From positions 1 through 21,637 of IMG/VR virus record IMGVR_UViG_3300032282_002850: a DNA stretch of 21,637 nucleotides, one strand, 5' to 3'. This DNA comes from a virus. The translations under genes were made by a program, and so were the position numbers. Positions 2,103 to 21,637 of the stretch are shown one piece after another (position 1 is the stretch's first letter; every line of letters starts with the position of its first letter). The notes beneath the pieces are model-generated. The model did not search any database. It was not told the DNA's origin and saw nothing but the letters and a program-made list of their open reading frames with translations.

Positions 2103-2726
2103 ATGAACGAACAAACCAACGCTAGAACTAATGCAAGAATCCAAGAATTATCTGAAAAACTACTACTAAACGAAGTAAGGGAAGCTGACCGTAATGAGCT
2201 TGCTAGACTAATTTATCCGAAGCTACGATATTTTATTTGGAAATTTTGTAAAAACGACTTTGACACTGAAGAGGCACTGCAGTGGACTCTTAAAAAGATT
2301 TTCAAGAACATTGCTCAATTCAATTATGAAAAGGGCAGGTTTACCACATGGATCTATACGATCGCACGTAATGAAACTCTTTTCTATCTCTATCACCTAA
2401 AGAAAAATAGTCATTATGATATCGATGCGATCCAACATAAGTTGGACTATTCAACTGACTTTGGCGAAATTCAAGTCTCATGTGGAGACCTAGACATGAT
2501 CTACAACACGACCGTCTCAGAAATACATGAGATGCCAGATCCTCTTTTACGAGGAATCGCAGTAGATAAGATGATAAGAAACAAAAAGGTGAAGGATATC
2601 GCTATAAAGTACGAGATGAACGAAAACACAGTAAAGACTAAACTTAGAAAGATTAGGTCTGATTTAAGAACTTCAATTCTCAAGAAAAATCCACAGTTTG
2701 AGGAAAAAATAAAAGTAATACTATGA
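2103..2726 (+). CDS. Phage sigma-70 family (ECF-like) sigma factor, candidate late sigma
   Basis: Directs RNA polymerase core to specific promoters. Region 2 covers about residues 30-100: a helical core-binding stretch, then the hallmark [11 protein letters not shown] (80-90) of region 2.3/2.4. Region 4 is a helix-turn-helix at about 145-190, with [17 protein letters not shown] forming the recognition part. No region 1 or 3 is evident, and 207 aa is typical of ECF sigmas and close to T4 gp55 (about 185 aa). It is not a clear gp55 homologue by eye. Its ATG follows the upstream stop by one base, and its TGA overlaps the next ATG (ATGA). Because the window is full of ATAAATAA boxes resembling the T4 late promoter, I infer that this protein is the late sigma. 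Family assignment is firm; the promoter specificity is inference. Confidence 0.85.
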
Positions 2727-3187: not shown

Positions 3188-3188
3188 G

Positions 3189-8109: not shown

Positions 8110-10311
8110 ATGGCACAAAGCAGGTTCGTAAATCTAACGTCATATTGCATGGCCGAATACATGGCAGAGCCGTTAGGTTCTTCTAATTATTACAATGACG
8201 ATTTCATCTTGGTCGAGAACGCTAAGACTGGGATTCATCAGATATTTAATGATGATGCTTCTTACCATACCACCAAGAACATACAGGATCTGACTGCCAT
8301 TTTGCTAGGTAATAACACATACGCTTATTTAGATAGCGAGAAGATACCTAATTATTTAGCATACGATACTGATTTGACAGTTACACCAATAACTGGCTAC
8401 AATGTCGTAATGGAAAAAGTAAGATTTCACTTTGTTGCAGGTTTTGATTTTGATCAATTTGTTGCTCTATTACTAAACGTGAGTCATACTGAGAATGATG
8501 GAAAGAAAAACGTTTTCGCTAACATCTTGCTTTCTCCGGAGACAATCCATGAGTTAATAATATTCAACCCAAAACCGTTATTCATCTCCAATGCAATGTA
8601 TGATAGGTTCATTGACATCCTAGTACCTTCGATAAAGAACATAAACGAGGACTATAAGATAGCTGCGGTACCTGCAAACACCTTTGTTGCTGCAATAACT
8701 CCAACTCCTAACGGTTCTACTGGCTTTATCTATAACAACCCAATTGACTTAGGACTAGCTGAATGCAGCAAGAAAAAGACGATAGTCACTGGAACTTCAA
8801 CTAATTACGATTCTTATGAAGTCTCTGAGTTCTACACTGCGACTGTTTCTCAAAGCAACGAATTCGATAATGTCGGAGCTTACATAAACGAATCTGCTGT
8901 AGGCGACTACATCGAGTTTTATCTGACGTTCAATAGCGGATTTCCAGAAGAACTTATCTCAATATTAAACCGTAGAAATCCAGCAGATAGCTGGATAGTC
9001 ATTCATCAGCTCAGCGTGTTTGAACAATTAGGAAGTTCATTCATAAACACAAGCAGACAAGTATTCTTTCAAGAAGACGGATTTGACGAACCTAACATAT
9101 TTAGACCAGTTTTAAAGAACGCTAACCATGCGGTAAGCATGTCAATTGACTTGATTTGTCGATTGACTAATCAACGAAACGGTGAACAGATAATCAGGGA
9201 AGCTTCATTTAACTTAATCTCTCCTAAAAAATATGGAAAGAAGTTAAATGCTCTACCTATATTAGATAAGCCAGGTTCACAGACCGTCTATAATAAGATA
9301 GTCAAGAATAACTTTGAAGCTACTTCTCTTTTCATTGAACCTGCACAAGTTTCACCACAGTCTACCACAATAGGCTCGACTACTGGAGGAACTACTCCAA
9401 CTCCTTCTACTACTGGAGGAACGAGCACGACTCCTATTACCTATACTGAATACGTGCCAATCTTCTTCAATAACAATAACATATCGATTGCTTCAACGAA
9501 TAGTATGGTAAAAATATCTGATGCGTCAGAAGAAATAGTATTTAGTCCGGGTAAATTAAGATTCGTCTTATCTCCGTTTGATAACTTGCTTAAGTTTAAG
9601 GTTTATACTAAGAATTCATCAACTACTTCAAATACCCCAATACCTCTAGACTTAAATACTAATGCACCAACGTATAAAATAGTTTTTGAAACCGATAATG
9701 GTAAAATCGCCATTAAAAACACCGGAGACTCTCAACTTGAGAACCTTTCTACTGGAGTAATTGCATTCAACATTGCTAAGGCCGACAGTGAGATAATTTC
9801 AGGATCAAAGAACAGAACGATGTACTTAACTTCAGTTTCACAAGACGGTCGTGAGACTTTCATGTATTCTGGAGAATGGAGAAAGCCTAGCGAACAATCT
9901 GAAGTAGATTCAGCAATTTCAACTGCCTTGGCTGAATCAAATAAACAAAAGAACTTACAGGAGATATTAGATAAGATAACTGCTCAAAACTCGAGCACAA
10001 CTTCTCAATTAGACATCTCCTCAGCTAATTCAACTTCCTCAATTAAGGATAAAGGTCAGGCACCTACCGTAAACAGATTTGGAATAAAGGACAGTAAATC
10101 GCTACAGGCAACTATTAAGAACCTTGTTTCCGGAAACACTACTGCTACTTCAAATACATCTAAGAAGCAAACTGTTTATACTGTTGCTAAAGGAGATAGC
10201 ATAAAAACTATCTCTGTAAAATACGGTGTAACTGTCGAGTCTATTAAAAAAGCAAACAACTTAACTACTAACGAAGTAGCAATTGGTCAAAAGTTGATCA
10301 TTACCTTCTAA
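8110..10311 (+). CDS. Large virion protein with C-terminal LysM domain
   Basis: 733 aa, starting one base after the upstream stop. The body is not recognised: an alpha/beta region (1-400), then a threonine/proline/glycine-rich linker at about 418-445 built from a duplicated 30-base unit, then a beta-rich domain (450-590). A low-complexity S/T/N/Q stretch follows (600-685). The end (687-733) is a clear LysM peptidoglycan-binding domain: VYTVAKGDSIKTIS, then VESIKKANNL and IGQKLIITF. LysM is known in T4-type baseplate wedge protein gp53 and in many tail proteins that touch the cell wall. A baseplate or tail-tip place fits the upstream gp26-like gene. Not a gp53 by size (gp53 is about 196 aa). 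Confidence 0.75.
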   Translation: MAQSRFVNLTSYCMAEYMAEPLGSSNYYNDDFILVENAKTGIHQIFNDDASYHTTKNIQDLTAILLGNNTYAYLDSEKIPNYLAYDTDLTVTPITGYNVVMEKVRFHFVAGFDFDQFVALLLNVSHTENDGKKNVFANILLSPETIHELIIFNPKPLFISNAMYDRFIDILVPSIKNINEDYKIAAVPANTFVAAITPTPNGSTGFIYNNPIDLGLAECSKKKTIVTGTSTNYDSYEVSEFYTATVSQSNEFDNVGAYINESAVGDYIEFYLTFNSGFPEELISILNRRNPADSWIVIHQLSVFEQLGSSFINTSRQVFFQEDGFDEPNIFRPVLKNANHAVSMSIDLICRLTNQRNGEQIIREASFNLISPKKYGKKLNALPILDKPGSQTVYNKIVKNNFEATSLFIEPAQVSPQSTTIGSTTGGTTPTPSTTGGTSTTPITYTEYVPIFFNNNNISIASTNSMVKISDASEEIVFSPGKLRFVLSPFDNLLKFKVYTKNSSTTSNTPIPLDLNTNAPTYKIVFETDNGKIAIKNTGDSQLENLSTGVIAFNIAKADSEIISGSKNRTMYLTSVSQDGRETFMYSGEWRKPSEQSEVDSAISTALAESNKQKNLQEILDKITAQNSSTTSQLDISSANSTSSIKDKGQAPTVNRFGIKDSKSLQATIKNLVSGNTTATSNTSKKQTVYTVAKGDSIKTISVKYGVTVESIKKANNLTTNEVAIGQKLIITF
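9379..9435 (+). repeat. Imperfect tandem duplication encoding Thr-rich linker
   Basis: A 30-base unit beginning ACTACTGGAGGAAC (9379-9392) recurs at 9409-9422, followed by diverged copies of the rest. It encodes two TTGGT-type linker units in the LysM protein and probably sets linker length. Confidence 0.6.
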
Positions 10312-10336
10312 AGTGAATTTGTGTTAGCCGAAAAAG

Positions 10337-10344
10337 ATAAATAA
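10337..10344 (+). promoter_or_regulatory. Late-promoter-like box ATAAATAA
   Basis: The box reads GATAAATAATAAAAAT, 18 bases before the ATG at 10363, and is one of the best matches to the series. It precedes a gene with signs of high expression. Confidence 0.65.
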
Positions 10345-10362
10345 TAAAAATAATAGCAAGAA

Positions 10363-11955
10363 ATGAAAGGTTTCGTAAACCAACTACTTAATTCATTAAA
10401 GTCTGATGAAAAGTTGGGCAAAGACCCACTAGTAAAGATGCTTATCGAATCTACTGATAAGTCAATCCTTTTGGGAGAGCACCCAGTTTCAATCTACGAT
10501 AAGTTAAAAGAAGGAGTAACAGCATTAGCTTCGACTACAAAAAGCCCTAAGCTAAAAGCTATTTCTGAACAATTCAATAAGTTTGAATCTACTCCTGAAA
10601 CAAAAATTAACGCTATTGCTAAAAAAATAGACCTTTCGTCTAGGATTTCTGAGATCAAAGGATCTGAGCTTGGTAAGAACCCAGTAATTTCTTCTCAATT
10701 AGATCTTTTTGAGAGCCATTTAGTTCAAGGAGCACCAGACTTTCTTTTATGCGAGTCATTCCTTAATTTACTAGCTCCTCATCAATATGATAAAGTTGCT
10801 AAAAAGCATTCTAGAGTCATTTCAAAGTATTTGAAAGAAAACCAAAGCAAGCATCTAATCATGGCTGCGATCTATAACATGGACGCAATGCCAAACAACC
10901 AATACACAAACGTTTCTTCAGATCTTAAACAAATGTTGTTGAAAGAGTCTTATTCTTCTGACATCCTTAAGATCAAATACGGCACGACTATTCCAGTAGT
11001 TAACCAATTAGTAAATGATTTACGTTTGATTGAGTCTAAAAAAGAAGGTTACTTTACATTAGGCGAAGGAGATTCTATTACTGCAATTAGCAACATGATT
11101 GCACCTGCTACTCAAGCAAAAGACGGATTCATTGTTTATACAAACGACAGATTCGTTTCAATAAGAGAGTCTAAGGCGCTTACTGGTAAAGAAACTAAGA
11201 TTTATGTTGATAGCAACGTAAAGATTGCTGAAGTTGATCCGAACTATGTTAAAGATAAATTTCCTAGATTCTATAAAGTAGCTGAGTCTTTTGCTACCTT
11301 AGGATTTAAGAAAAACATCGATGGTACTGGAGTAGAGTCTAATTCAATTAGAAACTTTAACTTGAGACTTTCGGTAAACGAGCAAAACAATATCGATATT
11401 TACTTAAATGGAAACATCGTTGCCGATGCTACTGAGATCAGTCTTAACGAAGCAATCTCTTTAGAAACGGCAGACACTAAACAACGATTAGTAAACCTTC
11501 TTGAAAACACTGATAATATCTTTAACTTTGATTTCATTAAAGAAGTTACTAACGACCGTACATTGGCTGAAGCTAAAGTAGTTAAGATCAATGATGATTA
11601 CTTTGTTTGTGAGAAGCTTAATGCTGCTGAATATGAGTGGAATAAGATGGACGAATACCAAATGTATGAGTTCTTTTCTCACAAATTCAATTACGACATT
11701 AGTCCTATTTTCAAAACTAAAATCGATGAAAAGGTTGAAAAATTCAAACACATCGAAAACAAAAAGAAAGACATCTTAGGAGACGTAAGCAAATTAGAAA
11801 TTACTTTAGATAAATTACAAGCAGCAATTCACAATCCGGACATGGATTCAGACGCAGTTAAGAAGCTAGAAAAGATCAAAGAATCTGTTGAAGCAACGAT
11901 GACTGCTCTAAAGCAAGATTACGTAGGTTTAGATCTAATTAAGAAAAGCATTTAA
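10363..11955 (+). CDS. Unknown abundant virion protein, single-gene transcription unit
   Basis: 530 aa. The family is not recognised. The first 110 residues are helical and lysine-rich, the middle (about 200-420) looks alpha/beta with strands such as DGFIVYTNDRFVSI, and the last 80 residues form a long charged coiled coil. No membrane segment or signal peptide. The gene is flanked by a late box 18 bases upstream and a strong terminator 22 bases downstream, so it is transcribed alone. By hand count only about 2 of some 44 isoleucine codons are ATA, whereas ATA is common in neighbouring genes such as the terminase. That bias suggests heavy expression, as expected of a major head or tail protein. 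It could also be an internal head protein, but its N-terminus (MKGFVNQLL) lacks the cleavage-site motif seen further on. Confidence 0.8.
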   Translation: MKGFVNQLLNSLKSDEKLGKDPLVKMLIESTDKSILLGEHPVSIYDKLKEGVTALASTTKSPKLKAISEQFNKFESTPETKINAIAKKIDLSSRISEIKGSELGKNPVISSQLDLFESHLVQGAPDFLLCESFLNLLAPHQYDKVAKKHSRVISKYLKENQSKHLIMAAIYNMDAMPNNQYTNVSSDLKQMLLKESYSSDILKIKYGTTIPVVNQLVNDLRLIESKKEGYFTLGEGDSITAISNMIAPATQAKDGFIVYTNDRFVSIRESKALTGKETKIYVDSNVKIAEVDPNYVKDKFPRFYKVAESFATLGFKKNIDGTGVESNSIRNFNLRLSVNEQNNIDIYLNGNIVADATEISLNEAISLETADTKQRLVNLLENTDNIFNFDFIKEVTNDRTLAEAKVVKINDDYFVCEKLNAAEYEWNKMDEYQMYEFFSHKFNYDISPIFKTKIDEKVEKFKHIENKKKDILGDVSKLEITLDKLQAAIHNPDMDSDAVKKLEKIKESVEATMTALKQDYVGLDLIKKSI

Positions 11956-11976
11956 TCCAGAAAAATAATTAAAGTG

Positions 11977-12013
11977 AATGGGCGTTATTTTTAGCGCCCA
12001 TTTTTTATTTTTC
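11977..12013 (+). terminator. Rho-independent terminator
   Basis: A perfect 8-bp stem AATGGGCG/CGCCCATT (11977-11984 with 11995-12002, ten-base loop) runs straight into a T-rich tract, TTTTTTATTTTT. It ends the unit of the abundant protein and separates it from the island that follows. Confidence 0.9.
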
Positions 12014-12056
12014 ATTTTTTATAGTATTATAGTCTCAAACTTAAAATTATTTTTAA

Positions 12057-12338
12057 ATGAAAAGTAACATTGTAGTCGGCCCAATCCAAAAGGCAAAACC
12101 GACAGTTAGCAGCACAGTTGGATCTAAGATCCAAGAAAACCTTAAGAAAATGAAAATCGGAAACTTCTTTGAAGTTAAAGGTTTAAATGACAGTCGAGAG
12201 CTTCGTAACCTACGAGCAGGAATCAGCTATTTTAGCAGAAGAAACAGAATCAAAGTTGAGACTTCTTTCAAAAGTGGTGTTCTTATTGTCATGAAGACTA
12301 AAAAATCGGGTGAAACCCAAAAGGCTGAGACAGTATAA
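12057..12338 (+). CDS. Small basic unknown protein
   Basis: 93 aa, strongly basic, with K and R spread throughout and a possible short alpha/beta fold at 35-85 (IGNFFEVKGL, then ISYFSRRNRIKVETSF). This charge suits nucleic-acid binding, but no known motif is visible. It is the first gene after the terminator, has no ATAAATAA box, and is preceded by TATAGTATTATAG at about 12020-12032, which may be part of a different class of promoter. It leads the island of three DNA- or sugar-related enzymes. Confidence 0.65.
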   Translation: MKSNIVVGPIQKAKPTVSSTVGSKIQENLKKMKIGNFFEVKGLNDSRELRNLRAGISYFSRRNRIKVETSFKSGVLIVMKTKKSGETQKAETV

Positions 12339-12355
12339 GAACTAAACAACCCTTG

Positions 12356-13183
12356 ATGGATACTAGAATAGACTTTAATACTGCCAAAAAATTCAATCAG
12401 CTTGAACTCATTGACTGGAAGACCCGATATGCGGACTTCCAGTTTTGGGTTCGACGTGGATTAAATGAAGTTACCTATAACGTTGGAACAAACGTTTCTA
12501 GGGGACCGAATAGTGGAGAATACATTAAGCCCTTTGTCGCAAAGAGCATGGGAGAACCGTTAGACGTTAACTTTATGTTGAATCGCGCTGACACATGGTT
12601 AGACATAGGCGGTCACATGGGATTCTTTGCCATTCGTATGGCAAAACAGTTTCCTAACATCTCAAACATTATTTTATACGAAGCTTTACCTCACAACGTG
12701 TCTTTTGCAGTTGAGAACATTAAGCTTAATGGAGTAGAAGATAAATGTGAAGTTGTGCAAAAGGCAATCAGCCCAATCGATGAAGAACGTATCGAGTTCT
12801 TTATATCTTCTGATTCTGGAAAACACTCAATCCTTCCAGTAAGAGGTCGAGAACACATCAGCGTTCCTGCAATAAACATCAATGACGCCATTAAAGAAAG
12901 CGGTGCTACTGCAATCAAGATGGACGTAGAAGGAGCAGAGTACGAGTTGATCAAGGCCGTTACTGATTGGTCTCAAATCAGAGTGATTGTTGTTGAGTGG
13001 CATTTTAATGCTCTACGTGCACTAAGAAAAGGTAAAGACCACCGAACTAAATTATTCGGAGAGGTGATGCAGATCTTAGAGCAAAACTTTGATGTCATTC
13101 GTAAGTTACCTAACGTGGCTGAGGGTAAGAACTACATAACACACTTCGTTGCGTATAAGAATGATACTGAAGAGTCCGTTTAA
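12356..13183 (+). CDS. FkbM-family SAM-dependent methyltransferase
   Basis: 275 aa from the ATG at 12356; an in-frame TTG at 12353 is less likely. The Rossmann core shows motif I WLDIGGHMGFF (81-91), the acidic end of strand two in YEALPHN (108-114) and the FkbM signature IKMDVEGAEYELI (187-199). FkbM enzymes usually O-methylate sugars or small hydroxyl substrates using SAM. Here the enzyme lies between a basic small protein and a glycosylase, and one gene before a glycosyltransferase-like protein, so the substrate may be a sugar on phage DNA or on a virion glycan. The substrate is inference. Its 3' end overlaps the next gene by 23 bases. Confidence 0.85.
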   Translation: MDTRIDFNTAKKFNQLELIDWKTRYADFQFWVRRGLNEVTYNVGTNVSRGPNSGEYIKPFVAKSMGEPLDVNFMLNRADTWLDIGGHMGFFAIRMAKQFPNISNIILYEALPHNVSFAVENIKLNGVEDKCEVVQKAISPIDEERIEFFISSDSGKHSILPVRGREHISVPAININDAIKESGATAIKMDVEGAEYELIKAVTDWSQIRVIVVEWHFNALRALRKGKDHRTKLFGEVMQILEQNFDVIRKLPNVAEGKNYITHFVAYKNDTEESV

Positions 13184-13583
13184 TCTACTACAAGAAATAT
13201 ACAATGAGCACCCTTGGCGGGTGCTCATTTGTTGTATAATGTTGAATTGTACTTCTAGAAAACAGGTCGATAGAGTTAGAGATAAGTTCTTTGAACTCTA
13301 CCCTGAGCCAGAGAGTGCGATCTCAGCAGATCCTAATGAGATGGCAGAAGTCATCGCCCATTTAGGTTTTAAGAATCGTAGAACCAAGACGATTCAGAGG
13401 TTCTCAAGGGACTGGGTTGAATTAGAATGGACCGAACCTAACGAACTATATGGAATAGGCAAATATGCTCAGGACTCATGGGAGATATTTAAAAAAGGAA
13501 ACCTTAAAGTCCAACCAGAAGACGGAGTACTCAATAAATACTTGGCTTGGGCTAAAACCCAACCCATAAACCCAATAAAATAG
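13161..13583 (+). CDS. MBD4-like HhH-GPD DNA glycosylase
   Basis: 140 aa from the ATG at 13161 (a TTG at 13149 would add four residues). It reads as the minimal catalytic domain of the MBD4 type. HPWRVLICCIMLN (17-29) matches the 'DPWKLLIATIFLN' start; LGF..RRTKTI.RFS (68-82) and the hairpin ELYGIGKYAQDS (95-106) follow. The catalytic segment is VQPEDGVLNKY (117-127), with D121 at the place of the essential aspartate of human MBD4. There is no iron-sulphur cysteine cluster and no Endo III lysine, so it should be monofunctional. MBD4 enzymes remove T, U and 5-hydroxymethyluracil opposite G. The start region contains a perfect 11-bp hairpin at 13203-13229, and the gene overlaps the methyltransferase by 23 bases. 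Confidence 0.8.
   Translation: MILKSPFNLLQEIYNEHPWRVLICCIMLNCTSRKQVDRVRDKFFELYPEPESAISADPNEMAEVIAHLGFKNRRTKTIQRFSRDWVELEWTEPNELYGIGKYAQDSWEIFKKGNLKVQPEDGVLNKYLAWAKTQPINPIK
13203..13229 (+). other. Perfect 11-bp hairpin at the start of the glycosylase gene
   Basis: AATGAGCACCC and GGGTGCTCATT pair perfectly around a 5-base loop (TTGGC). An outer ATACAA/TTGTAT pairing is possible with a small bulge. It lies 20 bases after the methyltransferase stop, inside codons of the glycosylase. The following TTTGTTGTATAATG is only weakly T-rich, so a leaky terminator or an RNA structure affecting translation are both possible. Confidence 0.7.
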
Positions 13584-13586
13584 AAT

Positions 13587-14678
13587 ATGAAAAGCCTTTA
13601 CACCTATTTTGGTCTTCTTGACCTACACTTCACTGATACTCCAGGTCACAATCTATATCAATTAGGATTGATTGATTCTATCGCTAATGAGTATGGTCAA
13701 GAAAAATTTGATTTCTTTAGTTATTATCCAGAAGACGACATGCCTGATCGAAAGTCAAGCTTATCAGGTTTTCCCAACTGTCTTCACTCTAAAATATTCA
13801 TAAAATATTTTGAAAAGAGAATAGACAAATACCTAATAGGTTCGACCGAAATGTTTTCAAATGTTTCTGAGAAAAAATACGATAAGCTCTTTCTAAAGGC
13901 AAGGTTTAGAAATCTCTCAACTTTAAGTAAGAAGTGGAAAGACGCTAGAACATTTGAACTTTTGATAACTACTGCAATCGATGCAGGCTACTCAAAGGAA
14001 GAGATTATCATACTTGATACTGACCTTTCTCTTTCTCACCACTTCACCACCAAATATAGAGAGTCGGTGACTATCGTGATTCCATCAATTGATTTTCCTG
14101 GAATCTCATCCGATTTCTTAGAAGAATGTGTTACCGTTAATGTCGAAAATTGGGATGAGAAACACAACGGTCTTTGCACCGTCTATTATGGAAACATCAA
14201 TACTTCAAATTACAAGAAAGGCAATCAAAAGAATGAGATCTTAGGAGATGCAATTCGCCACATTGAAAAGATGAATGACGGGAAAGAAGATGCCTTGAGT
14301 CTGATTTGTAAAAGAGAAGATTATGAAGGCGCAGTTCTTCATCCTGATGCCAATAGAAACCTTCACATAGAGCGTTACGATAGACAGATAATTTTTGGTA
14401 CTTTACTTGCGTCAAACATCATGTTAAATGTGACTAAGGACAAATATGACAATCACAAATTCGTCCCGGCCAGAATATATGAAGCTTTAATATTTGGTTT
14501 GATCCCAGTCTCATATAAGTTTGAATTCATGAGTATGGCATTTTCTTTTAATAACATAGAAGACTTAGAAGAAATTTATCTCTATTTCAAAGAGTGTTCT
14601 AAGGAAGACATGCTAACTAACTACCAAGCTTTTATTAAGAGCTTCATTAAAGCTAAGCCATTTACTAATAGTAACTAA
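13587..14678 (+). CDS. GT-B glycosyltransferase-like protein resembling T4 DNA beta-glucosyltransferase
   Basis: 363 aa, close to T4 beta-glucosyltransferase (351 aa). The C-terminal half carries VTKDKYDNHKFVPARIYEAL, with R296 and E299 spaced like the UDP-contacting R and E of T4 RVWETM. That stretch is followed by a region like the T4 end (a stretch around residues 318-360 with a long final helix). The N-terminus has GHNLYQLGLIDSIA near 20-33, where T4 has SETIYLFKVISEMG. The middle is not clearly alignable by eye. The reaction would be transfer of a sugar from a nucleotide-sugar to a hydroxymethylated base; glycosylation of a virion protein is the alternative. It starts four bases after the glycosylase stop, with which it is co-transcribed. 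Confidence 0.55.
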   Translation: MKSLYTYFGLLDLHFTDTPGHNLYQLGLIDSIANEYGQEKFDFFSYYPEDDMPDRKSSLSGFPNCLHSKIFIKYFEKRIDKYLIGSTEMFSNVSEKKYDKLFLKARFRNLSTLSKKWKDARTFELLITTAIDAGYSKEEIIILDTDLSLSHHFTTKYRESVTIVIPSIDFPGISSDFLEECVTVNVENWDEKHNGLCTVYYGNINTSNYKKGNQKNEILGDAIRHIEKMNDGKEDALSLICKREDYEGAVLHPDANRNLHIERYDRQIIFGTLLASNIMLNVTKDKYDNHKFVPARIYEALIFGLIPVSYKFEFMSMAFSFNNIEDLEEIYLYFKECSKEDMLTNYQAFIKSFIKAKPFTNSN

Positions 14679-14696
14679 AAAGTCACACACGGTCAG

Positions 14697-14704
14697 ATAA
14701 ATAA
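14697..14704 (+). promoter_or_regulatory. Late-promoter-like box ATAAATAA
   Basis: The box reads GATAAATAATTAAAAC, 15 bases before the ATG at 14720. It is flanked by an imperfect inverted repeat (CGGTCAG and CTGATCG, one G-U pair). It restarts late transcription after the enzyme island. Confidence 0.65.
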
Positions 14705-14719
14705 TTAAAACTGATCGAT

Positions 14720-16516
14720 ATGACTGCTGAGCAGATACTGGCTTGCGACTATATAAACGCAGAGTTTCCTAAATACGAAAAGCAACTTACTGAATTTGTC
14801 ACATTTGATAACTTAGTGAGCGAGGCATTTTCATTAAATGCAATTGAAGATGTTCTTCCTAATAAAATCTTCACAGAAATACACTTAGGTAAGATATTAA
14901 ACGAGAGCGGAAGCCGAGTTAAAGAATATTATTTAGGCTTGGCTGGAGGAAAAAACCAAATCCTTGAAGAAGCTCGCGCACTAGGTCTTAGTACTCAACA
15001 GATAAATGAGGCCATTGAAGACTTTAGAAACTTCATAAAACATAAATTATTTGAAGATGCAATGGCACTCGGTGCACCAGTAGCTTCGGCTGGAGGCTTC
15101 GATGCTGCATTGACTGGCGGAGAGAAGAAGGCACCCGCATCAGGGTCAAAGTGGACGATCTTAGGAACTCTAAAAAGCATATGGAACGGTCTTACTGAAG
15201 GTGGTTCAGTCATTGGAATAATTCACCTAATAATTGATATCATCGGATTGGTAGGAGACTTTATATTCCCGGGAGTAGGAGTAGTTGCTGATATAATTAA
15301 CGCGATAATTTATGCGATCAGAGGAAAATGGCTTCTTGCTCTAATTTCAGTAATTGCCGCTGTAATCGTCGGCGCAGGCGATGGTCTAAAATTATTTAAG
15401 CCTGTCGTGCATACTGCTGAACCTATCTTTGTAGCACTCACTAAAAGGGGAGGAGTTGAGGCCGCTAGTGAACTTGCAGGTAAAGCAGCTAGTAAGGGAC
15501 CAGTTATGAGATTCTTGGGACTTCTTGCATCAATGTTAGGTACCGCTTTATCTAAAGCCTCTACTCTACTTGGAAAGTTTATTCAAGGAATAGGCAAAAT
15601 ATTTTCCTGGATTCCAGGTTTAAATAAACTCACTACTCCTCTATTTGAAGGTTTAGGAAGAGTGTTTACTAAGTTTGGTGATAGCATGAAGCTCTTTGCT
15701 GACAATTTTGCACTCATGGAAAAAGGCGCAGCTAAAGTCGCAGTTAGTGAAATAGATGATGCTATTTCAAGCGGAGCTGCTATGTATATCTCTAAGGATG
15801 GGAAATACGTAAAGTTTGCTAAAGAAGGTAAGGTCGTACAGTATCCAGCAGAAAAGGTTGCACAAGCATACATAATAAAGAATCCTTCTAATAAGTACCT
15901 GTTTAAAAATGGAGCAGATTGGTTAAAATACCATAGAGTCGTTGCTAAGCCTGGAATTAAAGCGGCGTTCAAAGATAGATTCCTTGCATTCTTCATGACT
16001 CGATTCAATAAAGAAGCTGCTGAGAACTTTAGTAAAAGACTTCCGTATTTTGTAGGAAAACAGATCTATAAGTTAATATTCGGATCCAATTTCGTAGAGG
16101 GACAGTCTAAATGGACTAAGGACGAGGTAGAAGGTCACGGAAACGGAGCATTTAACGACTTCATCAATCAGAGGATTGCTGCTGAGAAAAAGAAGACTGG
16201 CGCAGATTTCGTCCCTAGTTTAATGTTAGATTCTTCAGATAAAGAAGCATTTGATCACATTAGTGACTATCAAAATCATTACGCTGAAATGACAGGTAAG
16301 CCTTCAATCATGCACGTAGTTTATGACAAGGCAGACAACAGTCCAGACGCAAAGCAATTCAAAAGCTTTTTCGATAAAGTTTCTTCTGGTGAAATAAAAA
16401 GAGGCGGTCCTGGAGACATAGTTCGTACTGGAACTTCGTCAGACATCAGAGACACAGGTAAAGTAAACAATGAAAGCCGAACAGTCTTCTCATTTAAAGA
16501 CTTTAAAAAGAGATAA
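14720..16516 (+). CDS. Large protein with pretoxin-like membrane module, candidate internal or ejected virion protein
   Basis: 598 aa. Residues 1-145 are soluble and helical. They contain FDNLVSEA (29-36), KILNESGS (58-65) and QINEAIE (94-100), which hold possible prohead-protease sites of the (L/I)-X-E type. Residues 148-225 are strongly hydrophobic, in the order GLVGDFIFPGVGVVADIINA, AIRGKW, ALISVIAAVIVGAG. This pattern is typical of the membrane-active module found ahead of toxin domains in polymorphic toxins. A second hydrophobic, glycine-rich run covers about 260-300. The end (about 430-598) is soluble and mixed, with no recognised toxin domain. A head-packaged protein that inserts into the host membrane during DNA ejection would fit. 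This is inference, as is toxin ancestry. Confidence 0.7.
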   Translation: MTAEQILACDYINAEFPKYEKQLTEFVTFDNLVSEAFSLNAIEDVLPNKIFTEIHLGKILNESGSRVKEYYLGLAGGKNQILEEARALGLSTQQINEAIEDFRNFIKHKLFEDAMALGAPVASAGGFDAALTGGEKKAPASGSKWTILGTLKSIWNGLTEGGSVIGIIHLIIDIIGLVGDFIFPGVGVVADIINAIIYAIRGKWLLALISVIAAVIVGAGDGLKLFKPVVHTAEPIFVALTKRGGVEAASELAGKAASKGPVMRFLGLLASMLGTALSKASTLLGKFIQGIGKIFSWIPGLNKLTTPLFEGLGRVFTKFGDSMKLFADNFALMEKGAAKVAVSEIDDAISSGAAMYISKDGKYVKFAKEGKVVQYPAEKVAQAYIIKNPSNKYLFKNGADWLKYHRVVAKPGIKAAFKDRFLAFFMTRFNKEAAENFSKRLPYFVGKQIYKLIFGSNFVEGQSKWTKDEVEGHGNGAFNDFINQRIAAEKKKTGADFVPSLMLDSSDKEAFDHISDYQNHYAEMTGKPSIMHVVYDKADNSPDAKQFKSFFDKVSSGEIKRGGPGDIVRTGTSSDIRDTGKVNNESRTVFSFKDFKKR

Positions 16517-16519
16517 CTA

Positions 16520-17365
16520 ATGAAGCTCAAGAACTTCGATAACTATGCTAAGTTTTATTCTAAGGACCCGTTAAGGTTCGAAAAAAGGGTAGCTCTTGCT
16601 TCTAAGTTTGAGTCACATCCATTATTTGAGAAGATCTCTAATTTAGACGAGTTAGCTAGCCTTGACCGTGAGATTCCTCTCATAATGTGGGATAAGTTTA
16701 GTTTCAACTCAACCAATGAGAGCGCAAGCCCATACCTCTATAATCGAACATATTTACAAGACCCGAAAGAGATAATTAAAGCAATGCGTGGAGAAGAATT
16801 CATGCCGAAGATGGCAGACTCTAGAGCAACAGTAAAAGGTCTCAAGTTTCCAATAATTGGAATAGACGGCTCTAATCAAGAAGAATATAAGACCTATCAT
16901 AAGTTTAAGTCTTCCGAAAAGACTTTTCCTATTTACCAAGAGAAAATTAAGCCTAGGGGAAGATATGAGGTTGTCGTATTGGACGAAAAACCGATTCACA
17001 TGATAAAGAGAGTCAGTGGTGTCGATTTCGATGCAAACACGGCTAGGTTTAAATGGCAAGACCAATTAGACACAATCATAACTAAAGTCAAAGAACTTTC
17101 TGAGTCAAACGTCTTCATCATTAATGTCCTAGAAAAAGACAATAAGCTCTTTCTAGAAAAGGTGAGTCAGGAAGGAGAACTAAATGATGCACAATCAGTA
17201 AAACTATATGAGAAGCTTTATGAATCTCATTATTCTACACAGCTTCCTACTTGGTTCAAGAAGCACGTAAAAGACAAATACTTGACTCCTCACTACAAGA
17301 AGAAGTATCATGACTCTCTCTTGTTAAAACCCACCGGAGTGATAAACTATGAAGGGCTAATTTAA
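16520..17365 (+). CDS. ATP-grasp-like protein (possibly degenerate)
   Basis: 281 aa, starting three bases after the previous stop. The middle resembles an ATP-grasp core: KFPIIGIDGSNQ (109-120) where ATP-grasp enzymes have the glycine-rich loop, then YQEKIKPRGRYEVVVLDEKP (139-158) with a helix-strand pattern like 'EKI...YRV.VV'. FIINVLEKDNKLFLEKVS (199-216) stands where the 'D.....vlEvN' end would be. The usual asparagine after the final glutamate is absent, so activity is uncertain. The start MKLKNFDNYAKF resembles the N-terminal peptides of the NUDIX and M15/GH19 proteins downstream but lacks a clear NE(S/A) site. It is followed by bS21 with a one-base gap. Confidence 0.5.
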   Translation: MKLKNFDNYAKFYSKDPLRFEKRVALASKFESHPLFEKISNLDELASLDREIPLIMWDKFSFNSTNESASPYLYNRTYLQDPKEIIKAMRGEEFMPKMADSRATVKGLKFPIIGIDGSNQEEYKTYHKFKSSEKTFPIYQEKIKPRGRYEVVVLDEKPIHMIKRVSGVDFDANTARFKWQDQLDTIITKVKELSESNVFIINVLEKDNKLFLEKVSQEGELNDAQSVKLYEKLYESHYSTQLPTWFKKHVKDKYLTPHYKKKYHDSLLLKPTGVINYEGLI

Positions 17366-17366
17366 G

Positions 17367-17549
17367 ATGTTAATAGTAAAAGGAGAAGGAAAAAAGATCG
17401 AATGGATCCTAAAGGAATATCGCAGAAAGGTTGATAAGAGTCAACAGTTAAAGCGTTTGCGAGACCTTAGAGAATTTGAAAAACCAAGCATTGCCAGACG
17501 ACAGGAAAAACAAAGAGCAAGACATAGAGCACAAAATGAAAATCGCTAG
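17367..17549 (+). CDS. rpsU: Phage-encoded ribosomal protein bS21
   Basis: 60 aa. It has the full bS21 layout: a strand MLIVKGEG, a helix IEWILKEYRRKVDKSQQ (11-27), then LRDLREFEKPSIARRQEKQR (31-50), and a basic helical tail. bS21 sits at the 30S platform near the anti-Shine-Dalgarno 3' end of 16S rRNA and is a known phage-encoded ribosomal protein. At the C-terminal place where Bacteroidota bS21 has an aromatic residue (tyrosine near 54) thought to help hide the anti-SD, this protein has H53-R54. The leader GGGCTAATTTAAG has no strong Shine-Dalgarno. The NUDIX gene starts within its last 14 bases. Confidence 0.85.
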   Translation: MLIVKGEGKKIEWILKEYRRKVDKSQQLKRLRDLREFEKPSIARRQEKQRARHRAQNENR

Positions 17550-18015
17550 TTTTGAAAACTTTATTAATGAATCTAAGCACCTAGCTCGAAGAGCTGCTGG
17601 TGTTACTTTGCTGTTTGATAATAAAATCCTACTCATTCATCCTACTGGAGGTTCATGGAAGAATGGAACTTGTGGAATACCTAAAGGTAAGATAGAAGAG
17701 GGAGAAGACATGTTCGAAGCAGCTCTTCGTGAACTTAGGGAAGAGACTGGAATAGAGATAGAGCCTTCACTAGTTGACCCTACTCCCCATTCAATTGATT
17801 TTTATAACGGTAAGACTCCTAGTGGAAAACTCATCTATTTTGTATGTGAGCTTTCTAGCTTAGAAGATATTGGTCTTACTGATATCATATTACCAAAATC
17901 TATGTTACAGCTCGAAGAAGTAGATTGGGGAAAATTCGTAGGTCGCGACGAAGCCTATGGATTGATGACTAGAGCACAGTTGATAATACTGGACAGGCAC
18001 CTAATAAATAACTAA
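17536..18015 (+). CDS. NUDIX hydrolase with capsid-targeting-like N-terminus
   Basis: 159 aa from the ATG at 17536. A start at 17476 is also open but would overlap bS21 by 74 bases and add an unconserved basic stretch. The Nudix box is complete: G51, E57, R65-E66, E69-E70, G72, matching GX5EX7REUXEEXGU, so it should cleave a nucleoside diphosphate linked to another group. The acceptor is unknown: nucleotide sugars, ADP-ribose, capped RNA and dNTPs are all possible. The first residues MKIASFENFINES resemble the T4 head-targeting peptide (recalled as MKTYQEFIAEA), with a possible cut after I10-N11-E12. The start is about 26 bases downstream of the sequence that codes for the bS21 basic tail. 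Confidence 0.85.
   Translation: MKIASFENFINESKHLARRAAGVTLLFDNKILLIHPTGGSWKNGTCGIPKGKIEEGEDMFEAALRELREETGIEIEPSLVDPTPHSIDFYNGKTPSGKLIYFVCELSSLEDIGLTDIILPKSMLQLEEVDWGKFVGRDEAYGLMTRAQLIILDRHLINN
18004..18011 (+). promoter_or_regulatory. Late-promoter-like box ATAAATAA
   Basis: The box reads AATAAATAACTAAAAG, overlapping the last codons of the NUDIX gene and 15 bases before the GTG start at 18027. Spacing matches the other boxes. Confidence 0.6.
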
Positions 18016-18026
18016 AAGATCTTCTA

Positions 18027-19484
18027 GTGAGACTATTTAACTTTGACAGTTGGCAATCAGTTAATGAGGCAGCATACGCCTTTAAATTCGACCCTGCAGC
18101 AAGATATCCAGATCCAACATTTGGACTTGCCCAAGGTCCAATAGATTCAGCTAAGGCTGCGCCTGGAGGAGAGGGAAGTAACTGGGGAGGATCTATGACT
18201 AGGGCGCTTGCCTTTGCCAAGATAGCTAACGATTTCATGGGAAAAAACGTAGTTTCCTCTCAAAAGAGAAGCCGTGAGCTAACTGCTTCGGGTAATATGT
18301 CAGATCACTTTAAAGGAAATGAAAGCACATATGCAGTAGACCTTGCATGCAGCGGAGAAGAGGGAGATAAGTTACTTGCTCATATAATGACGTGGTTCGG
18401 TAAACCAGACTATACCGGAGGATCGTGGTTAAACGTAGTAAAAGACGGATATCGCTATCAATTTGGTTGGAAGGTAAAGGGTCATTATGATCACATTCAT
18501 ATCGGAGTGAAGAAGACCGTAAAGGACAAGATAAAATCAGCAGCAGATCAAGTCGAAACTGAGGTGAGAAACGCGATAACTGCTATGCCTGGAAACAGCT
18601 TTGCTGAAAAACTCGTAAACAATCCAGAATTCTTAACATGGTATTCAAGTTATGCTCCTCCTGGGAGCCCTGCGCCGACTACTGAATTCATAAACACCTA
18701 CATTTCTGAAAACCCAGGTAAAAAAGACTGGTTTATTAATAGGTTTAAATTAAACTCAGACGGTGACAAGATAAACGACGATGCTGCTGGTCAGAGAACT
18801 GATGTAAAGGACAGCGAGGTTGCAGCCGACTTTACTTCAACTGAGATAAAGACTAATTATACTGGAGAAAAGGCAAGAAACATCGATCTTTTAGTGAATG
18901 AGATCAAAAAGCAGGGAGTGACTAATAAGTATGCAATAATTGGAATGTTAGCAACGATCGGTAAGGAAAGCGGATTCATTCCCAAGAATGAGATTCCTTA
19001 CACTAACACCTCAAACGATAGGATACGTAAGATCTTTGGATCTAGAGTAAAGGACTTTACTGATGATGAGCTCACAGCATTAAAGAAAAACGCTACTAAG
19101 TTTTGGGATAGAGTATATGGATCTGATGATCCTACAGGTAGATCACAACAATATGGAAACTCTGAACCTGGAGACGGTTCTAAGTACTTAGGTAGAGGAT
19201 TTAATGGAATAACGTTTAAGGGTAACTATAAGAAATATGGAGACATGGTCGGAATGGATCTTGTGTCTAATCCGGAAGCATTAAATGATGTTAAGGTTGC
19301 TGCGCAAGCAGCTGTTAAGTTTCTACTGACTGTCTTAAAGAATATGAGAATAGACCCAAATAGCTTTACGAATAAGACAGATGCAATCAAGTCATTCGTT
19401 CAAGCTAATCATGGAGGACATTCAGCTCCAGCCGAAGGTATCACAAAGGCGACTGAAGTCTCACAAAATCTAGATGTTGCCTAA
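18027..19484 (+). CDS. Bimodular peptidoglycan hydrolase: M15 peptidase plus GH19
   Basis: 485 aa. The start is GTG at 18027; the frame has a TAA at 18009-18011, and no other start is available. Residues about 55-162 form an M15-type zinc peptidase (SDHFKG with H94, AVDLAC with D105, GHYDHIHIG with H156/H158). Residues about 285-445 form a GH19 lysozyme/chitinase domain with E314 in GKESGF and GDGSKYLGRGFNGITF (382-397). Together they would cut both the peptide stem and the sugar backbone of the cell wall. The N-terminus MRLFNFDSWQSVNEA has a possible cleavage after V12-N13-E14, which resembles a head-targeting peptide. Without a signal sequence it would act as an endolysin late in infection or as a virion enzyme at entry. 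Confidence 0.85.
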   Translation: MRLFNFDSWQSVNEAAYAFKFDPAARYPDPTFGLAQGPIDSAKAAPGGEGSNWGGSMTRALAFAKIANDFMGKNVVSSQKRSRELTASGNMSDHFKGNESTYAVDLACSGEEGDKLLAHIMTWFGKPDYTGGSWLNVVKDGYRYQFGWKVKGHYDHIHIGVKKTVKDKIKSAADQVETEVRNAITAMPGNSFAEKLVNNPEFLTWYSSYAPPGSPAPTTEFINTYISENPGKKDWFINRFKLNSDGDKINDDAAGQRTDVKDSEVAADFTSTEIKTNYTGEKARNIDLLVNEIKKQGVTNKYAIIGMLATIGKESGFIPKNEIPYTNTSNDRIRKIFGSRVKDFTDDELTALKKNATKFWDRVYGSDDPTGRSQQYGNSEPGDGSKYLGRGFNGITFKGNYKKYGDMVGMDLVSNPEALNDVKVAAQAAVKFLLTVLKNMRIDPNSFTNKTDAIKSFVQANHGGHSAPAEGITKATEVSQNLDVA

Positions 19485-19514
19485 AACCTTTGGCCTATTC
19501 TGAGTTTAATACTC

Positions 19515-19522
19515 ATAAATAT
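19515..19522 (+). promoter_or_regulatory. Variant late-promoter-like box ATAAATAT
   Basis: The box reads CATAAATATTAAA and ends only 6 bases before the ATG at 19529. A small inverted repeat TGAGT/ACTCA (19501-19505 with 19511-19515) lies just upstream. The short spacing would make a nearly leaderless message. Confidence 0.45.
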
Positions 19523-19528
19523 TAAATT

Positions 19529-20038
19529 ATGTCAGAAGAAACATTAAACCAAGAACAACAAGTAGAAGAAGTAGTTCTTCAAACTGAATCACTCGATGAA
19601 GTAGAAAATCTATCAATGACTGCTGAACCTCAAGAAGAGATAAGTGAAATGGATCAATTGATCGCAAGAAGAATGGGTAGTTTTAACGTGTCCCTTTCAT
19701 TAAGCGACCTAAAATACCTTAGAAACAAGTTAAATGACGTTACTTGGACTGGTCCAAATGAAGCGTATCTTCAGATCATGGCAGTAGTTGCGATAAACAA
19801 TGAGATTCGTAACATAGAAAACCAAAAGGACACTAACACAAGACACACAGTGTCTCTCCCTTCAACGACAATTGAATCCATAAACTTCTTCTTAAGTCGA
19901 GTTTCTGGAAAGGGCGAAGAAGGCGCGCATCGACTTTTTGCAGTATCAATGTTGCTTCGATCTGTCATGGAAGAAATAAAAAACATGGATGCAGACATCA
20001 CTGCCGCTAGAAATTCTCAAGATTCTGAAAAAAATTAA
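19529..20038 (+). CDS. Unknown acidic protein
   Basis: 169 aa. The first 45 residues are very rich in E and Q and probably disordered. The rest is helical, with a hydrophobic core at about 85-145, followed by an acidic end. No known domain. Position between the peptidoglycan hydrolase and the core-like acidic protein suggests head assembly, but nothing in the sequence proves it. Confidence 0.65.
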   Translation: MSEETLNQEQQVEEVVLQTESLDEVENLSMTAEPQEEISEMDQLIARRMGSFNVSLSLSDLKYLRNKLNDVTWTGPNEAYLQIMAVVAINNEIRNIENQKDTNTRHTVSLPSTTIESINFFLSRVSGKGEEGAHRLFAVSMLLRSVMEEIKNMDADITAARNSQDSEKN

Positions 20039-20049
20039 GAATTGAAGGA

Positions 20050-20057
20050 ATAAATAA
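20050..20057 (+). promoter_or_regulatory. Late-promoter-like box ATAAATAA
   Basis: The box reads AATAAATAATAAAAAA, 18 bases before the ATG at 20076. It is among the best matches to the series. Confidence 0.6.
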
Positions 20058-20075
20058 TAAAAAATTCGAACAGAA

Positions 20076-20405
20076 ATGACAAGAGTAAAAAACTTTCAAG
20101 GTTTCATGAGAAGCAGACTTAACGAGTCTGAGGAAATGGGATCAGAGGCATATGGAATGGAGCCTGATACATACGGAATGTATGGTGCAAATCCAGAAGA
20201 CGAAGATGCTCCAGAGGATGCTCCAAAAGACGGCGAAGAGGGCGATGAAGAAGAGGAAGTAACATTAGACAGCCTTAAAGCTATGATCGAAGATCTTACT
20301 GAAAGAGTTGAAAAACTTGAAGGTGGTGAAGAAGGTGAAGACGTTCCTGAAGACGGCGAAGAAGCTCCTGAAGAAGGTGCTGAAGAAGGAGCAGCTAAGA
20401 AATAA
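20076..20405 (+). CDS. Small acidic prohead-core-like protein
   Basis: 109 aa, extremely acidic. The N-terminus MTRVKNFQGFMRSRLNES has a basic, aromatic peptide ending in a possible prohead-protease site after L15-N16-E17. The rest is E/D/G/P-rich, with one helix (VTLDSLKAMIEDLTERVEKL, residues about 62-81) that could form a coiled coil. The composition and N-terminal peptide recall T4 gp67 (PIP), the small acidic core protein cleaved in the maturing head. Its unit is closed by the terminator at 20433. Repeated GAAG-type codons give low-complexity DNA. Confidence 0.65.
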   Translation: MTRVKNFQGFMRSRLNESEEMGSEAYGMEPDTYGMYGANPEDEDAPEDAPKDGEEGDEEEEVTLDSLKAMIEDLTERVEKLEGGEEGEDVPEDGEEAPEEGAEEGAAKK

Positions 20406-20432
20406 GAAATACTCTTAATTTCAATAATATAC

Positions 20433-20466
20433 AAAAGCGGATCGAGTGGTCCGCTTTTTCTTTTTT
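20433..20466 (+). terminator. Rho-independent terminator
   Basis: A 9-bp stem AAAAGCGGA/TCCGCTTTT (20433-20441 with 20450-20458) with an 8-base loop is followed by TTTTTCTTTTTT. It ends the unit of the acidic protein. Confidence 0.9.
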
Positions 20467-20468
20467 AG

Positions 20469-20476
20469 ATAAATAA
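20469..20476 (+). promoter_or_regulatory. Late-promoter-like box ATAAATAA
   Basis: The box reads GATAAATAACTTAAAT, directly after the terminator, and ends only 5 bases before the ATG at 20482. Transcription from it would start at or very near the start codon. Confidence 0.55.
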
Positions 20477-20481
20477 CTTAA

Positions 20482-21450
20482 ATGAAGTCTAGAGCATTCG
20501 CATATAACCCTTCGGAAACACCTGTTACTGGTGCCATCTCACATGGTAATCTATTGATTGAAGACCTACCTAACGACTATTCATCTAAGCCTGGAGAAGT
20601 GACTTGGTGGGAAGGGCCCGATGAGGATTTGGGTTATGTAATAGCGACTAGCTTTCCTGCAGGAACTAGACCTACTCCAATAGGTAATATTGGGACCGTT
20701 CGTTTTTGGAGAACTCAATCCTTTGATGACACTCAATTCATTAATCTAGCGAGCATCGTTGCTGGCCAGAGCTTTGTGGATACTGCTTCTGCTGTTAATT
20801 GGCTCCACTCAAACTCTTACTGGACCTCATACACTAGCACATATGCGCTAGTTTCCCTATATGAAGCTAGAAACTCATCTTCATACCCTTCGCCTTATAG
20901 CGGAAGCACGTGGTTTGATCTATCTAGCCAAAACAATGACGCTTCGTTAACTAACACTTCATTTGACACCGAGCTTTTTAGTATGTACTTCAACTCGGCG
21001 TATGCTTCTATTGGGCAACCCATTTCAGGAAATGCATATTCTATAGCTGCTTGGATAACACCATTCTCCACAGTAGGGGCAAGAAACATAGTTTCTTCAC
21101 AAAACAGTCCTTTTTGGATAAACAGCGGTACCCTTTATGGAGGAGTAGGCGGGGGTTATACTTTAGTTAGTGAAACGATAAACGAATCTCAAAGGTATTT
21201 TGTTACTTTGACGTTCAATGGCAATTCAAATACTATGACGTTATACGTCGATGGGGTTAAAGTAGACCAAAACACCAATGTTACTCAAAACTATACATCA
21301 GAACCTACATTTATTGGGTCACATTACGTAGGAACCAATGCGTCTTTTTTTGAAGGCTTAATAGACTATGTTGCGATCTATGACGGTGAACTTTCATCTA
21401 GTGCAGTCTCATCAATTTATACAAATACTTATTCTACTTATGGCAACTAG
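20482..21450 (+). CDS. Surface protein with shared N-terminal domain and LamG-like domain
   Basis: 322 aa. Residues 1-60 form an N-terminal module (RAFAYNP, DYSSKPG, TWWEGPDEDLGYVIA) that recurs in the next gene. The last 200 residues resemble a laminin-G/concanavalin-type jelly roll: VSLYEARNSSSYP near 124-136, then WFDLSSQNNDASL, YSIAAWI and MTLYVDGVKV, ending in LIDYVAIYDGELS. Such domains bind sugars and are found on phage capsid or tail-fibre adhesins. It is therefore probably exposed on the virion and may bind host or mucus glycans; whether it sits on head or tail is unknown. The next gene starts within its last 11 bases. Confidence 0.75.
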   Translation: MKSRAFAYNPSETPVTGAISHGNLLIEDLPNDYSSKPGEVTWWEGPDEDLGYVIATSFPAGTRPTPIGNIGTVRFWRTQSFDDTQFINLASIVAGQSFVDTASAVNWLHSNSYWTSYTSTYALVSLYEARNSSSYPSPYSGSTWFDLSSQNNDASLTNTSFDTELFSMYFNSAYASIGQPISGNAYSIAAWITPFSTVGARNIVSSQNSPFWINSGTLYGGVGGGYTLVSETINESQRYFVTLTFNGNSNTMTLYVDGVKVDQNTNVTQNYTSEPTFIGSHYVGTNASFFEGLIDYVAIYDGELSSSAVSSIYTNTYSTYGN

Positions 21451-21637
21451 AGCATTTGCATATAACCCAACTCAAGCAACAATTACAGGAACTACTAATG
21501 TGGGTACCTTATGTATAGGAGTATCTGCTTTAGATTTTAGTTCAAAACCTGGCGGATTGACTTGGTGGATGGGACCAGAAGAAACTAACGTTTATATCAT
21601 AGCTAAAGATGTCTCTACACAAAATTTTCCGACGCAA
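21440..21637 (+). CDS. Paralogue of the preceding surface protein, 3' end outside window
   Basis: 66 residues of an open frame running off the window. The start MATRAFAYNP and the later SSKPGGLTWWMGPEE repeat the N-terminal module of the upstream gene, roughly 20 of 60 positions being identical by eye. The ATG overlaps the previous stop by 11 bases in another frame. The C-terminal domain is not visible. Confidence 0.8.
   Translation, partial: MATRAFAYNPTQATITGTTNVGTLCIGVSALDFSSKPGGLTWWMGPEETNVYIIAKDVSTQNFPTQ

Follow-up and report, generated by a model that had tools for sequence, protein, structure and literature searches.

The analysed window is a single stretch of 21,637 bases that comprises the entire IMG/VR record, and it could be extended only via related contigs. 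At the 3' end of the window, two adjacent co-directed genes, hereafter A and B, are encoded downstream of a terminator-like hairpin and a late-promoter-like motif (Table 1). The start of gene B was placed at the ATG at position 21440, the ATG at 21368 in the list of open reading frames being merely the first one in frame. As the initial annotation held, the two genes overlap and share an N-terminal module: across residues 1-55, A and B have 28 identical residues (28/55, or 51%; E 1e-17, 61.6 bits), compared with the top score of 18.9 bits for 300 shuffled versions of B against A. The LamG-like domain that the same annotation had assigned to one of the two genes is indeed present in the C-terminal part of A, where Laminin_G_3 (PF13385) scores 63.4 bits, above the curated cut-off of 27.6; the Pfam scan detected no enzymatic domain in gene A. 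With 66 codons of B inside the window, differences between the C-terminal parts of A and B are visible through relatives only.

Table 1. Features of the A/B locus, with positions in the window.
Feature	Position	Strand	Remarks
Terminator-like hairpin with T-run	20433..20458	+	11 pairs, 5 of them G-C; separates the acidic gene 20076-20405 from A
GATAAATA, T4-type late-promoter-like motif	20468..20475	+	Starts 14 nt upstream of the A start codon
Gene A	20482..21450	+	Adhesin-like, 322 aa
N-terminal module of A, residues 1-117	20482..20832	+	Mean pLDDT 93.5 (AlphaFold2, module alone)
LamG domain of A, residues 178-309	21013..21408	+	PF13385, E 3.4e-17
A/B overlap	21440..21450	+	11 bases; also 11 bases in 6/6 relatives checked (L003, L004, L005, L006, L007, L017)
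Start of gene B: 66 codons, within the N-terminal module	21440..21637	+	Runs past the end of the record

Given the hairpin that precedes it, A probably begins a transcription unit of its own. The region contains three such hairpins with a T-run, where 1.6 would be expected; a similar hairpin is located 5' of A in the related records L003-L007 and L014, and is absent in L017. In the window, NATAAATA precedes 8 of the 25 gene starts (sites at 3188, 4250, 10336, 14696, 18003, 19514, 20049 and 20468), with a mean of 0.9 and a maximum of 5 in 2000 shuffles; it has 13 copies on the coding strand against one on the opposite strand. According to a report on cyanophage S-PM2, NATAAATA is the late promoter of that phage (PMC2984593). 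The presence of GATAAATA in front of the ATG, the enrichment of the motif in the window and the fit to the S-PM2 sequence together suggest that A is probably a late gene. This argument is restricted to the window and its clade; a family-wide enrichment of NATAAATA was considered and rejected (9 of 85 module genes, against a shuffled mean of 7.9). The distance from the motif to the ATG is 14 nt at A and 24-27 nt at 6 of the 7 other genes with the motif, and given this spacing, the transcript of A may have hardly any leader. Upstream of 46 of the 85 distinct module genes (shuffled mean 3.5, maximum 9) lies TATTTAT, which is the T4-type motif in reverse complement, and it may be that the central bases of the late promoter changed between T4-like groups; our literature search found no paper on TATTTATA as a phage late promoter.

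The module, about 117 residues long and with a confidently predicted structure, shows no convincing relationship to any Pfam or PHROG family: among 82 modules, the best Pfam match, in one member, has an E value of 0.07, and two PHROGs without a given function match one module each (E 0.004 and E 0.005). The search for sequence matches in the PDB was equally negative (best E 0.04), and no PDB fold was found for the module (best Foldseek E 2.2; 0 of 225 chains with Z of at least 2), which by itself would not establish that the fold is new. With three members as queries, tblastn did not detect the module in 50,697 phage records, and the module profile, which was positive in 50 of 50 module-bearing records, found nothing in five phage records taken from the best TerL matches and in HTVC112P (0/6). 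Literature searches on the arrangement yielded no paper on the module among their results. Within the reach of these searches, what is new is the family of anchors, its occurrence across uncultured T4-like phages and the natural series of swaps described below.

The profile search retrieved 172 relatives among 235 candidate stretches, and the best 80 of the 172, representing 79 loci, were kept. Two of nine genome contigs carry the module, one from a Bacteroidetes MAG and the other from a Winogradskyella MAG. After the removal of four duplicate loci, 94 records were searched, and the module was identified in 122 reading frames from 92 of these, more than one such frame being present in 24 of the 92; it begins at residues 2-74 of stop-to-stop frames, a range that is given apart from the split module of L056. 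In that record (L056:12320-13621), an insertion of about 200 residues splits the module near module position 67. The 50 records searched whole, many of them fragments and some near-duplicates, contain one module in 35 cases, two in 10 and three in 5, with one split module counted once. The earlier suggestion that further copies might follow downstream of B was not borne out when the locus was extended and copies were counted on related contigs, as that annotation had proposed: in L003 and L017, the A/B pair gives way to unrelated genes, a third copy being absent from the sequence covered, and 35 of the 50 records have a single module. Long arrays of copies are thus not supported by these sequences.

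Beyond the module, the C-terminal parts vary in size from none to 1203 residues. Pfam searches of 78 C-terminal parts, in which a single part can match several families, identified LamG in 26, GLEYA, PA14 and Lectin_L-type in 3 each, Lectin_leg-like and DUF285 in 2 each, and Gly_rich_2, PKD_4 and F5/8 type C in 1 each. A weak match to Toxin_R_bind_N (1 of 78 parts, E 2e-4) was read as the same lectin-like fold. Near the start of 38 of 110 C-terminal parts, there is a P/T-rich stretch, a possible stalk. Four BFVD proteins match the module (E up to 0.001), all from uncultured Caudovirales, and three of these are named for different C-terminal domains, namely GLEYA, SPRY and concanavalin-like. 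The L016 C-terminal domain is similar (33.6%) to a protein annotated in HTVC112P as 'putative tail protein'. The model of full-length A is good in the module and poor in the LamG part (mean pLDDT 58.7); the PDB structures that match it (Z up to 8.0) do so mainly over residues 118-322 and show no more than a common lectin-type beta-sandwich, and the names sialidase, neurotoxin binding domain and pilin among these matches carry no functional meaning here. Head-less frames of 142 aa, which consist of nearly the module alone, are found in L064, L066, L073, L079, L081 and L082.

Scans of viral contigs yielded contigs collinear with the window, L003 for example matching positions 10480-21633 at 74% DNA identity. 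Complete homologues of B occupy the same place in L003, L004, L005, L006, L008 and L017; L003, L004 and L005 probably represent one phage, as their A proteins are identical to within one residue. Comparison of L003 with L006 reveals a clean cassette swap at gene B. The DNA of the two records is 86% identical from 9919 to 11306, through A and the B module, of which position 11306 is the last codon; no match is detectable in 11307-12017, and the alignment resumes with 97% identity from 12018, B of L003 stopping at 12008. The end of B in L003 is LamG (E 1e-9), and that in L006 is weakly L-type-lectin-like (E 7e-5; 23.1 bits, far under the Pfam curated threshold of 78.3). In protein comparisons, the B modules of L003 and L006 are 89% identical, with C-terminal parts dissimilar at E 1e-4, and the same holds for L050 and L051 (modules 91%) and for two tandem genes of L054 (modules 91%). 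The reverse also occurs: L018 and L096 share a C-terminal domain (86% over 139 aa) and have modules that are 39% identical, and L016 and L096 share a PA14/GLEYA-type domain (80%) with modules at 46%. Thus, in related phages, a conserved N-terminal module is joined to unrelated C-terminal domains. The view in the initial annotation of a constant module with exchangeable ends holds for the exchange, which runs in both directions (L003/L006 and L018/L096), and fails in that a long array is not supported and A keeps its LamG end. Its proposed comparison of C-terminal halves between related phages gave B proteins of L003 and L006 that are unrelated past the module, and the pattern that would have spoken against it, a B gene like A along the full length without variation between phages, was not found for B.

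Set against these examples, many proteins with similar modules resemble each other in the C-terminal part as well: in a strict protein test, with 70% identity demanded across the entire alignment and redundant records counted, the alignment ends near the module end in 7 pairs and continues for more than 100 aa beyond it in 68. Because of this identity requirement and the counting of redundant records, we prefer the DNA-level swap between L003 and L006 as evidence. Grouping the 110 C-terminal parts by single linkage was uninformative, with 16, 30 or 48 families depending on the coverage cut, because LamG domains and linkers chain sequences together. With the most permissive cut, copies from the same record fall into one family in 17 of 23 multi-copy records, and we accordingly make no claim that tandem copies always differ.

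Within the clade of the window, the two genes have had different fates. The LamG end of A is retained in the window and in all six relatives compared, and the module and the C-terminal part of A are about equally conserved across seven records including the window (86 and 86% between the window and L003). By these comparisons, A is unexchanged in this clade, and B alone is exchanged there. In L003 and L017, both A and B have LamG-type ends, those of A being assigned by likeness to A of the window. A remnant of B with an in-frame internal deletion that leaves 67 codons is present in L007 (4183-4386), L012 (131-334) and L013 (131-334), and a stub of 24 codons in L014 (2426-2500).

The TerL of the window matches phrog_2 and phrog_5989, and it matched 2631 phage records, with no more than 35.4% identity among the matches listed; the terminase appears to be of the T4 type but distant. 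Gp23, the capsid protein of T4, was identified in 34 of 51 records (28 long and 6 short matches), the short window not being among them, and terminases related to that of the window are present in 14 of the 51, window included, two of these being weak. Judging from the distribution of Gp23 and of the terminase, the module probably spans more than one T4-like phage group. A sigma-factor-like gene is located near the terminase in the window (2103-2726; phrog_1740, E 5.7e-11). The motifs AGGAG, GGAGG and AAGGA are missing from the last 20 nt of all 85 distinct upstream regions, and this, together with the two MAG hits, would fit Bacteroidota as hosts.

The analysis of gene neighbours covered 92 of the 98 listed upstream of module genes and 86 of the 91 listed downstream, the ones left out being those of the near-duplicates L014 and L071, one upstream neighbour in L043, one downstream neighbour in L049 and one very long upstream neighbour in L090. 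Collagen-like repeats occur in 10 of the 92 upstream and 4 of the 86 downstream neighbours; among the 92 upstream neighbours, each of the PHROGs for tail fibres or collagen-like tail proteins has 5-10 matches, numbers that the collagen repeats inflate. In the window, none of the genes beside A and B can be recognised as encoding a tail fibre. Genes shortly before A repeatedly encode proteins with N-termini such as F..FINES or F..F...LNES (17476-18015, 18027-19484 and 20076-20405 in the window; 8783-9040 in L017). These N-termini resemble T4 capsid-targeting sequences, and by this resemblance, the proteins may be packed into the head.

We consider it fairly probable that an uncultured T4-like phage expresses A and B late and carries them on the virion as adhesins, in which the module serves as a plug, the C-terminal part binds glycan, and recombination at the boundary swaps the heads. 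The module would be a compact plug that holds the protein at a constant site on the virion, most likely the tail fibre or baseplate; binding of a glycan on the host surface would fall to the C-terminal part, which is often lectin-like (LamG, L-type lectin or PA14/GLEYA). Recombination at or near the module boundary would replace the binding part and keep the plug, such that a new specificity would still be compatible with the same virion. In the clade of the window, A would then be a stable adhesin and B a variable slot that is swapped or decaying. Of this scheme, the sequences themselves show the constancy of the module, the exchange and the kinds of domain. A tail location is favoured by the collagen-like upstream neighbours (10/92) and by the match of the L016 head to the putative tail protein of HTVC112P.

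The same exchange would be expected if the module were attached to the head and the lectin-like ends decorated the capsid surface in the manner of Hoc, holding the virion to mucus, particles or cell surfaces instead of performing primary receptor recognition; it is the place and use that differ from those in the adhesin scheme. Such capsid decoration, which we regard as possible but rather unlikely, would agree with the capsid-targeting-like N-terminal motifs, recognised by eye, of the genes directly upstream in the window, and with LamG and PA14 being general adhesion domains. However, the module matches no catalogued family of any kind, and collagen-like proteins are encoded next to it in other phages (10 of 92 upstream neighbours). 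T4 Hoc presents adhesion-type domains on a T4-like particle, as A and B would, and a PKD domain is found in 1 of the 78 C-terminal parts, but the conserved, capsid-binding part of Hoc is C-terminal, whereas the module is at the start of the frame.

Improbable in our judgement is a role of A and B off the virion, as adhesins or lectins that are produced by the infected cell and, for example, alter or mask the host surface: a late-promoter-like motif precedes A, the gene is named a putative tail protein in the sole public phage record that turned up with a relative of the C-terminal domain, and the module occupies the first residues, with no signal-peptide-like N-terminus seen by eye. A plain tandem duplication, in which both copies are kept conserved and nothing is exchanged, would account for the full-length conservation of A in the window and six relatives and for the LamG-type ends of both genes in L003 and L017; it is very improbable, being contradicted for B by the swap between L003 and L006, unless the L006 assembly is chimeric, and given that modules and C-terminal parts are differently combined across the family. 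The variable C-termini of adhesins are typical targets of diversity-generating retroelements, but such an origin of the variable ends is hardly credible here, because the differences are whole-domain replacements and not point changes, and because reverse transcriptase (PF00078) was detected in none of 50 module-bearing records, mostly fragments, compared with 3 of 14 control genomes.

The principle of a constant anchor with a changeable head, on which the favoured adhesin scheme relies, is well known. The tip adhesins of T4-like phages (gp38 type) combine a constant attachment part with a changeable recognition part, as A and B would; in the gp38 type, it is loops that vary, whereas here it is a whole lectin-like domain, and the module has no gp38-like PHROG match. 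LamG proteins of cyanophages and uncultured Caudovirales in BFVD have the LamG fold in common with A, and some are annotated as structural, but most share LamG only, the module alone matching just the four entries mentioned above. In the receptor-binding proteins and tailspikes of podoviruses, such as Klebsiella phage KP32, N-terminal domains attach to the virion and C-terminal modules vary and include carbohydrate-binding or lectin-like folds, according to PMC13082707, and domain mosaicism is pronounced among receptor-binding proteins, as stated in PMC10684548. The design of A and B, as deduced here from sequence, is similar, with a putative attachment N-terminus and a varying C-terminus; unlike these proteins, the module lacks a Pfam, PHROG or PDB-sequence match, gene A has no enzymatic domain by Pfam, and the module-bearing phages are largely T4-like and uncultured.

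More tentatively, and with less conviction than for the adhesin role itself, we propose that the module is an uncatalogued socket-plug, possibly with a new fold, of uncultured T4-like phages that probably infect Bacteroidota, onto which lectin, PA14/GLEYA, SPRY and other heads are fitted by recombination at the boundary, A being the stable slot and B a test bay for swap and loss. The exchange looks like a means for uncultured T4-like phages to alter the target of adhesion. The module is common in uncultured large phages, and with an anchor that has no Pfam or PHROG match, the adhesins that carry it would be missed or labelled 'LamG protein'; a module profile would pick out candidate host-range proteins in viral metagenomes, and the natural swaps reveal where the module boundary tolerates exchange. 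L096, a 254 kb contig from a Bacteroidetes MAG, contains two module genes together with ORFs that, by eye, have capsid-targeting-like N-termini; the contig is possibly that of a large phage which was placed in the bin of a host.
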